This document shows, piece by piece, positions 43,745-45,177 of a DNA stretch of 64,000 bases; the first letter of the stretch is position 1; every line of letters begins with the position of its first letter. The position numbers were made by a program, and so were the translations under genes. The notes below the pieces were generated by a model that saw nothing but the letters and a program-made list of their open reading frames with translations, searched no databases and was not told the origin of the DNA. Origin of the DNA: Spirochaetales bacterium (GTDB lineage Bacteria; Spirochaetota; Leptospiria; Leptospirales; Leptonemataceae); the NCBI GenBank assembly GCA_015075425.1, contig JABTUL010000002.1:124001-188000 (forward strand). The letters are read 5' to 3'.

Positions 43745-43887
43745 ACGCTCCCCAAGTGCCCCAGCAAGCCAGTCCGCAAAATCCCGGTCAAGGCCTTTTC
43801 GGCATCCGCCTTTCCCACACCCTTTTCGCCCCGCCTGATCTTTTTTCCTTGCTTTTCCCGTTCCTTTATAAAAATCTATCGACAATC

Positions 43888-43893
43888 GGGGGA
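43888..43893 (+). promoter_or_regulatory. ribosome binding site of the repeat-containing gene
   Basis: GGGGGA, 7 bases before the ATG at 43901. It marks this ATG as the real initiation codon, although the frame it opens runs out of phase with the downstream domain. The internal ATG at 44013 has no comparable site. Confidence 0.55.
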
Positions 43894-43900
43894 CCATAGT

Positions 43901-44510
43901 ATGTCAGAGCAGCAGAGCAGCAGAGCAGCAGAGCAGCAGAGCAGCCGTAGCGGCCTATTTTCTCAAAGGGGCTGCATTTTCCGCAGGGGCAGCCAGCTTC
44001 TTAGCGCTGGGCATGATCATCGCCCAGAGCCTGAACACGTTCCAGGCCGGTGAAGTGGTATCCGCAAGCAAGATCAATCAGAACTTTCAGATCGCCGCTC
44101 CCCAGGGATTTGTAGGAGCCTTTATGCTATCGGCGTGCCCATCAGGCTGGATCCTGGCCGATGGCTCGAACGGTACTCCCGACTTGCGTGGGCGCTTCAT
44201 CCGGGGCCGTGATCCAGGAAATGCCACAGCGCGAGACCCCGGTGGAGATCGCGCGGCCGGCAATGCCCAGGACGATGCTTTTCAGGGACACTGGCATTTG
44301 CTGGGCGACGCTGCGGGAAACGTAGCAACTGGCCGCTCTACAATTGGTTCAAGCGGAGGTGATGAAGTAGGCGCAATCGCTACACCGCGTACAGAATTAT
44401 CACGTGCAATTACCCCCACTGCGGACGGAACGAGTGGAGCTCCCCGTACCGCCAGTGAAACCCGCCCCAAGAATGTGGCCCTGATTTACTGCATGCGCCA
44501 GGATAGTTAA
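43901..44510 (+). CDS. exported phage-tail-collar-like protein, phase-OFF (frameshifted by octamer repeat)
   Basis: The ATG at 43901 leads into five copies of CAGAGCAG and ends at a TGA at 44051-44053 after 50 codons. The downstream frame is open from 43872 to 44510 and encodes a hydrophobic segment (AAYFLKGAAFSAGAASFLAL) and then a tail-fibre/collar domain (SGWILADGSNGTPDLRGRF, DDAFQGHWH, PKNVALIYCMRQ). With six (or three) repeats the two join into about 205 (or 197) residues; four repeats give an early stop. An internal ATG at 44013 could make a 165-residue form without the whole signal segment. The collar domain is seen in phage tail fibres and in some exported proteins. Confidence 0.75.
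43905..43944 (+). repeat. five perfect copies of the octanucleotide CAGAGCAG
   Basis: A perfect 40-base tandem array one base after an ATG. The unit length is not a multiple of three, so gain or loss of one unit changes the frame. Three units make 8 residues (SEQQSSRA), so an in-frame array reads as a peptide repeat. Confidence 0.97.
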
Positions 44511-44512
44511 GG

Positions 44513-44914
44513 TTATTCTAACAAGCGGACGGGATAGCGTTCAAAAACGCGGTCCACGGTGGCTATAACCCAGCTATTCTTAACAGCGTGCGCAATCAGA
44601 AGCCTGTCAAAGGGATCACGATGAATGGCCGGTAGCTTCCCCAGCAAAAAAATCGCCTCATCCTCAAGGGGAGCCTGGACAAATCCGGTCCGGCGCATCG
44701 CCTCAGGTAACAGTCTTTGAGGTGGCGCCGGCAGGCCCAACTTGCCCAGATCGTATTTGATCTGAATCTCCCAGAGCGAGATTTGATGGAAGACCCAATC
44801 CCGATCCGCAGCAGTCATGGCTCGCCGGATGAAAAGGGGCAATTCTGGTGCATCAAGTAGAATCCACAGGGCGATGTGGGTATCCAGGAGAACAGGCGAT
44901 GGGCTACTCGCCAT
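44513..44914 (-). CDS. PIN-domain toxin (VapC-like)
   Basis: 133-residue PIN-domain ribonuclease. Acidic residues of the active site are visible: Asp in LLDTHIALW, Glu in ISLWEIQIK, and two Asp in HRDPFDRLLIAHA. It is a likely toxin of a type II toxin-antitoxin pair with the Phd-like gene upstream, whose stop it overlaps by 11 bases. An ATG five codons upstream is also possible. The cleavage target is unknown. Confidence 0.88.
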   Translation of the reverse strand: MASSPSPVLLDTHIALWILLDAPELPLFIRRAMTAADRDWVFHQISLWEIQIKYDLGKLGLPAPPQRLLPEAMRRTGFVQAPLEDEAIFLLGKLPAIHRDPFDRLLIAHAVKNSWVIATVDRVFERYPVRLLE

Positions 44915-45143
44915 AGAAGTCGCGTTCAAACTCGATCAGAGGCTGATCGAAATCGGCCGGAACAACAAACTGCCCCTTCAAGACACCCGGTTTGAGCTTC
45001 ACAACTTCCCGGGCATGTGGCAGGGGCTTTAGAACGGCCACAGGGACATTCCGTTCCGCTATAATGAAACCGGCCCCTTTTTTGACCTGATCAAGGAGAC
45101 GACCCAGACTACTTTTAGCCTGTGACAGGTTGACAACTTGCAT
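44904..45143 (-). CDS. Phd/YefM-family antitoxin
   Basis: 79-residue antitoxin starting MQVVNLSQAKSSLGRLLDQV, the DNA-binding Phd/YefM N-terminus, with an acidic C-terminal part (DFDQPLIEFERDFYGE) that should bind the PIN toxin. It is expected to repress its own promoter. The predicted promoter places transcription start at or near the ATG, so the mRNA may be leaderless. Confidence 0.85.
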   Translation of the reverse strand: MQVVNLSQAKSSLGRLLDQVKKGAGFIIAERNVPVAVLKPLPHAREVVKLKPGVLKGQFVVPADFDQPLIEFERDFYGE

Positions 45144-45148
45144 AGTAA

Positions 45149-45177
45149 TAATCAAGAATTAGACTAAAAATTGTCAA
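45149..45177 (-). promoter_or_regulatory. candidate promoter of the toxin-antitoxin operon
   Basis: On the minus strand a perfect TTGACA (45177-45172), 17-base spacer, and a weak -10 TGATTA (45154-45149). The start of transcription would fall at about 45142, on the ATG of the antitoxin gene. Confidence 0.4.

Follow-up and report, generated by a model that had tools for sequence, protein, structure and literature searches.

Phase variation through simple sequence repeats (SSRs) has been studied best in pathogens and commensals that are adapted to a host. In Haemophilus influenzae, paralogous surface-protein genes (YadA-domain adhesins) carry different SSR classes, and octamers are known from the hmw loci (PMC2651432, PMC3309571). 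Besides tetranucleotide loci, this species possesses hmw genes with 7-9-nt SSRs upstream, and the octamer GCATCATC is located 5' of hmw1A and hmw2A (PMC2651432, PMC3309571). In the literature searched, neither a phase-variable collar-domain protein nor SSR phase variation in relatives of Leptospira was found. The locus described here resembles the SSR loci of H. influenzae in that exact short arrays are located at or near surface-protein genes, the repeat unit is not a multiple of three, and paralogues bear different SSR classes.

The genome under study comprises 4.13 Mb in four contigs. The whole stretch of DNA that was analysed, termed the window, has a length of 64 kb and corresponds to positions 124001-188000 of contig C2. 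One of its genes, as seen in one assembly, is very probably a slipped-strand ON/OFF SSR contingency locus. The features of this gene, together with the corresponding array of a paralogue on contig C1, are the following:

43872..44510, + strand: collar-protein frame, open at 43872-44507, with the stop TAA at 44508-44510
43888..43893, + strand: GGGGGA, Shine-Dalgarno-like; the GGGGG ends 8 nt 5' of ATG 43901 and is a plausible ribosome-binding site
43901..44053, + strand: frame of ATG 43901 with its stop at 44051-44053, a 50-codon out-of-frame product, OFF at five units
43905..43945, + strand: octanucleotide array (CAGAGCAG)5.125, every copy exact, open in all three frames
43953..44036, + strand: conserved hydrophobic export segment (AYFLKGAAFSAGAASFLALGMIIAQSLN) with codon-level constraint upstream of ATG 44013
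44037..44507, + strand: phage short-tail-fibre collar/tip-like domain, in which the motifs TPDLRGRF-RG, DAFQGHWH (HxH) and ETRPKNVALIYCM flank a hypervariable loop region
L034:1327-1516 (G000:C1 about 1639126-1639315): GAATCAGA array of the C1 paralogue, 23.75 exact octamers

An earlier note on this DNA had reported an ATG at 43901 followed by an exact octamer array, and both sequence and coordinates hold. The run amounts to 5.125 CAGAGCAG units (5.1 exact units at 43905-43945 according to TRF) and is separated from the ATG by a single base, the T at 43904. The frame of this ATG does end at 44051-44053, after 50 aa. It had also been claimed that the collar frame, open from 43872, lacks a start codon before the export segment; a search for ATG, GTG and TTG from 43872 found none 5' of 44013, and the first such codon, ATG 44013, lies inside the hydrophobic segment. 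The frame arithmetic is right as well: 3, 6 or 9 units bring ATG 43901 and the collar domain into one frame, 4 or 5 units do not join them, and 4 units lead to a TAG immediately past the array. Unit number sets the frame, since a unit of 8 bp is not divisible by three and no frame of the array contains a stop; a change in this number moves the frame between a full-length and a truncated product, as in a contingency locus. The peptide encoded by the repeat was correctly recognised as a repeated unit, which reads EQQSSRAA (MSEQQSSRAAEQQSSRAA...) rather than SEQQSSRA. No sigma-70-type promoter was called 5' of the window collar gene.

The background for the array was taken from 30 copies of the 64-kb window generated with a first-order Markov model and searched for perfect arrays with a unit of 4-12 nt and at least three copies. 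The longest perfect array in these copies measured 18 nt, compared with 41 nt for the CAGAGCAG array; a perfect array of this kind at a coding start is beyond chance. In 864 kb of the genome, a sample made up of the window and forty stretches of 20 kb each (800 kb), perfect octamer arrays were found only at two collar genes, those of the window and of the C1 paralogue; six of the first 20 stretches had been picked to cover collar loci, which biases the sample toward repeats there, and the others were spaced regardless. A genome-wide search further showed that the CAGAGCAG and GAATCAGA octamers each form an array at one place only. Among very few arrays longer than 20 nt in the sampled genome is a perfect ATTG array of 5.75 copies (L213:4938-4960, G000:C2), located between genes or at the edge of one.

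Runs of at least ten G or C are equally scarce and number three in the entire 4.13 Mb, namely the C12 of a further collar copy, a C10 and a G14. The G14 run (L199:9174-9187, identical to G000:C1:59174-59187) splits an FkbM methyltransferase into two frames. This is a probable second phase-variable gene, of the contingency type, whose product perhaps acts on surface polysaccharide, and it suggests a wider use of repeat-length switching in this organism. Relatives at the family level contain long poly-G tracts, none of them at collar genes. In one such relative, a G14 is located a few bases 5' of the ATG of a small lipoprotein-like gene (L230:1568-1581, identical to G018:C1:137267-137280), where it could tune expression. 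An exact search of viral contigs for the start region returned nothing.

A protein search of the genome detected, in addition to the window gene, four further sizeable paralogues as well as decayed fragments at two more loci (C1:2231126-2231490 and C2:472786). The paralogue at G000:C1:1639332 harbors 23.75 exact GAATCAGA units (190 nt) between a GTG start and the collar frame. This octamer differs from that of the window and forms a far longer array, at the same place relative to the collar domain. At the assembled count the GTG is out of frame with the domain, and counts three apart bring the two into frame; a GGGGG is positioned 9 nt 5' of the GTG that opens the array. All copies are exact across 190 nt, which implies recent slippage. 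Upstream of this GTG lies a small ORF, about 20 codons long, that has a strong Shine-Dalgarno sequence. A third paralogue, at G000:C2:787897, carries a run of 12 C after ATG AGG AGC T, is out of frame and truncated at its C-terminus, and is probably a decayed gene; a DUF1554 gene adjoins it. The remaining two paralogues stand in tandem (L038) and have ordinary ATG starts (MKQE-KKSFLKGAAFAGG). Hence three of the five sizeable copies show a repeat at the same place, each a different one, and all three are OFF in the assembly.

A single clade with a support of 100/100 unites the five paralogues, and the homologues in related Leptospirales genomes have a plain ATG start with no repeat there. Among the genomes compared, therefore, expansion and repeats are confined to this lineage. 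Upstream of their starts, the window and C1 copies have in common only the 12-nt TTTTTTCCTTGC and the GGGGG, and a recent duplication of a whole promoter-repeat unit is therefore unsupported.

Comparison of the paralogues reveals constraint on the collar frame. The window and C1 copies differ at 77% of the synonymous and 30% of the nonsynonymous sites (pS 0.77, pN 0.30), and the frequency of differences at third codon positions is over twice that at first or second positions; the other paralogue comparisons point in the same direction. Changes fall mostly at third positions in the export segment before ATG 44013 too, which favours translation from upstream of this codon and hence through the repeat. 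The domains of the window and C1 copies are full-length, stop-free and constrained, and the sole defect in each is found at the length-variable array. The frame downstream of the repeat is an intact, selected coding sequence, as at a contingency locus.

The earlier description of the domain as a collar was right in substance. Support comes from PHROGs, where the tail collar fibre families (PHROG 1800 and 523) are matched at about 1e-15, with 2.2e-15 for PHROG 1800, and from a PDB profile search with a profile of 41 homologues, which retrieved 9CUY at 2.1e-21 and 1OCY (T4 gp12) at 3.5e-16. The Pfam entry Collar (PF07484) stays below threshold, with 17.2 bits for the window protein against a cut-off of 24 and up to 21.2 bits for the paralogues, none of which reaches the gathering score. 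With a significant profile match over collar and tip, the collar/tip identity can be regarded as secure at the level of sequence. The AlphaFold model has a mean pLDDT of 64.8, a low confidence that is too weak on its own for claims about the fold; Foldseek searches with it gave 6OV6, 1PDI and 1OCY at E-values of 5e-4 to 6e-3 and low TM-scores.

The profile alignment with the T4 gp12 short tail fibre (1OCY, 1PDI; 9CUY) and with PHROGs 1800 and 523 extends over collar and tip, and the elements in common with gp12-like tips are PDLRG-F-RG, the HxH region and the end ETRP-N--L-Y--. Within the family, the motifs TPDLRG-F-RG, DAFQGH-H and ETRP-NVAL-YC enclose a middle region whose length and sequence are hypervariable from one paralogue to the next, as is the case in receptor-binding fibre tips. 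Unlike phage fibres, the window protein is bacterial, small and stand-alone, bears an export segment at its N-terminus and is encoded in a chromosomal, non-phage neighbourhood. A bacterial counterpart with solved structure is the collar-domain protein C24 of Bizionia argentinensis (6OV6), which provides the best Foldseek match (E 5e-4, obtained with the low-confidence model) along with a profile match, at an identity of 20-23%. The terms "adhesin-like" and "surface" in the earlier note stand less firmly, as suggestions drawn from the tail-fibre-tip fold and the hydrophobic export segment.

The immediate neighbours of the window gene are a glutamate synthase (named by eye from the sequence, not by profile), a lipoprotein-like protein, a PIN/Phd pair, a Cys-rich protein, FecR and a sigma factor. 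The neighbours seen there are not phage genes, and prophage membership was rejected for this immediate neighbourhood only. The pair of PIN-domain toxin and Phd/YefM antitoxin follows directly 3' of the collar gene but is encoded on the other strand (window 44513-45155, - strand). Collar genes often follow a lipoprotein-like gene (L037:1086-1802; in relatives L040, L041 and L043), and in three related genomes a protein of about 494 aa, weakly ZU5-like in L040, is encoded just before the collar genes. Furthermore, two collar loci have one and the same reading frame (MRSRVPWNFCGLPHSGHFFFAG...) in their vicinity (L208:10518-10937 and L216:8145-8513), which is possibly part of a repeated mobile element.

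The phase-variable reading offered by the earlier note has been considerably strengthened by paralogues with a 23.75-unit octamer array and a C12 tract, all of them out of frame, and by the constraint on the downstream frame. We propose that slipped-strand mispairing during replication adds or removes 8-bp CAGAGCAG units just after the ATG. The unit number would decide whether ribosomes from ATG 43901 enter the collar frame (3, 6 or 9 units, ON) or a short dead-end frame (OFF), and the five units of the assembly would correspond to the OFF state. The predicted ON product of about 200 aa would combine a hydrophilic tail encoded by the repeat with an export signal or membrane anchor and with the tail-fibre-tip domain, the last located outside the cytoplasmic membrane. 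The window, C1 octamer and poly-C copies are all OFF in the assembly, and different combinations of family members could be switched on.

With one ON count in three, there is a 30% chance that all three repeat copies are OFF, and pseudogenes would look the same. It is nevertheless unlikely that the repeat-bearing paralogues are frameshifted dead copies whose arrays are incidental expansions. All three of these copies are indeed out of frame, the C12 copy is without its C-terminus, and the two further loci hold decayed fragments only; but the domains of the window and C1 copies are whole and under constraint apart from the array, and two different octamers at the same place, with none elsewhere in 864 kb, are not expected from random decay. 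It is very improbable that the protein is made constitutively from an internal start or a non-canonical one (ATG 44013, ATG L034:1560 in the C1 copy, or ATA/ATC upstream), with the repeat acting only as a leader outside the protein. Although ATG 44013 and the collar domain share one frame, use of this codon would lose most of the export segment, which is conserved with synonymous-biased change in all paralogues; moreover, a well-spaced GGGGG precedes both ATG 43901 and the C1 copy's GTG, and at the corresponding position the C12 copy lacks an ATG.

An assembly or consensus error in the repeat is scarcely credible as the cause of the pattern. Assemblies do contain miscounted units, short reads cannot span the 190-nt array, and long reads are prone to errors in homopolymers, whereas any read easily covers 41 nt of octamers. 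An error at one locus would leave the arrays at three paralogues unexplained, and the existence of an array is independent of its exact count. The slipped-strand contingency locus remains our preferred reading of the window gene. A wider and more tentative proposal concerns the family as a whole: a free-living Leptospirales lineage may have turned phage fibre tips into a lineage-specific, exported binding repertoire with combinatorial ON/OFF switching through independently acquired repeats (two octamers and one poly-C), in which the hypervariable tip loop would confer member-specific specificity.

Three members with a different repeat each at the same position, in one environmental Leptospirales genome, suggest a repeated acquisition of switchability on one protein family. 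They also indicate that fibre-tip-like proteins may form a class with a variable surface function, such as the recognition of phages, predators or neighbours, or attachment. The earlier note had drawn its parallel from host-adapted bacteria, for which support is lacking; the relatives are environmental metagenome-assembled Leptospirales genomes, and the host-adapted analogy therefore concerns the mechanism only. Compared with H. influenzae, where tetramers predominate and gene-associated octamers are located upstream, the octamers described here lie within the first codons. The bacterium studied here is an uncultured member of the Leptospirales, and its switched target would be a tail-fibre-tip protein. 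The mechanism is one already known and the target apparently a new one.
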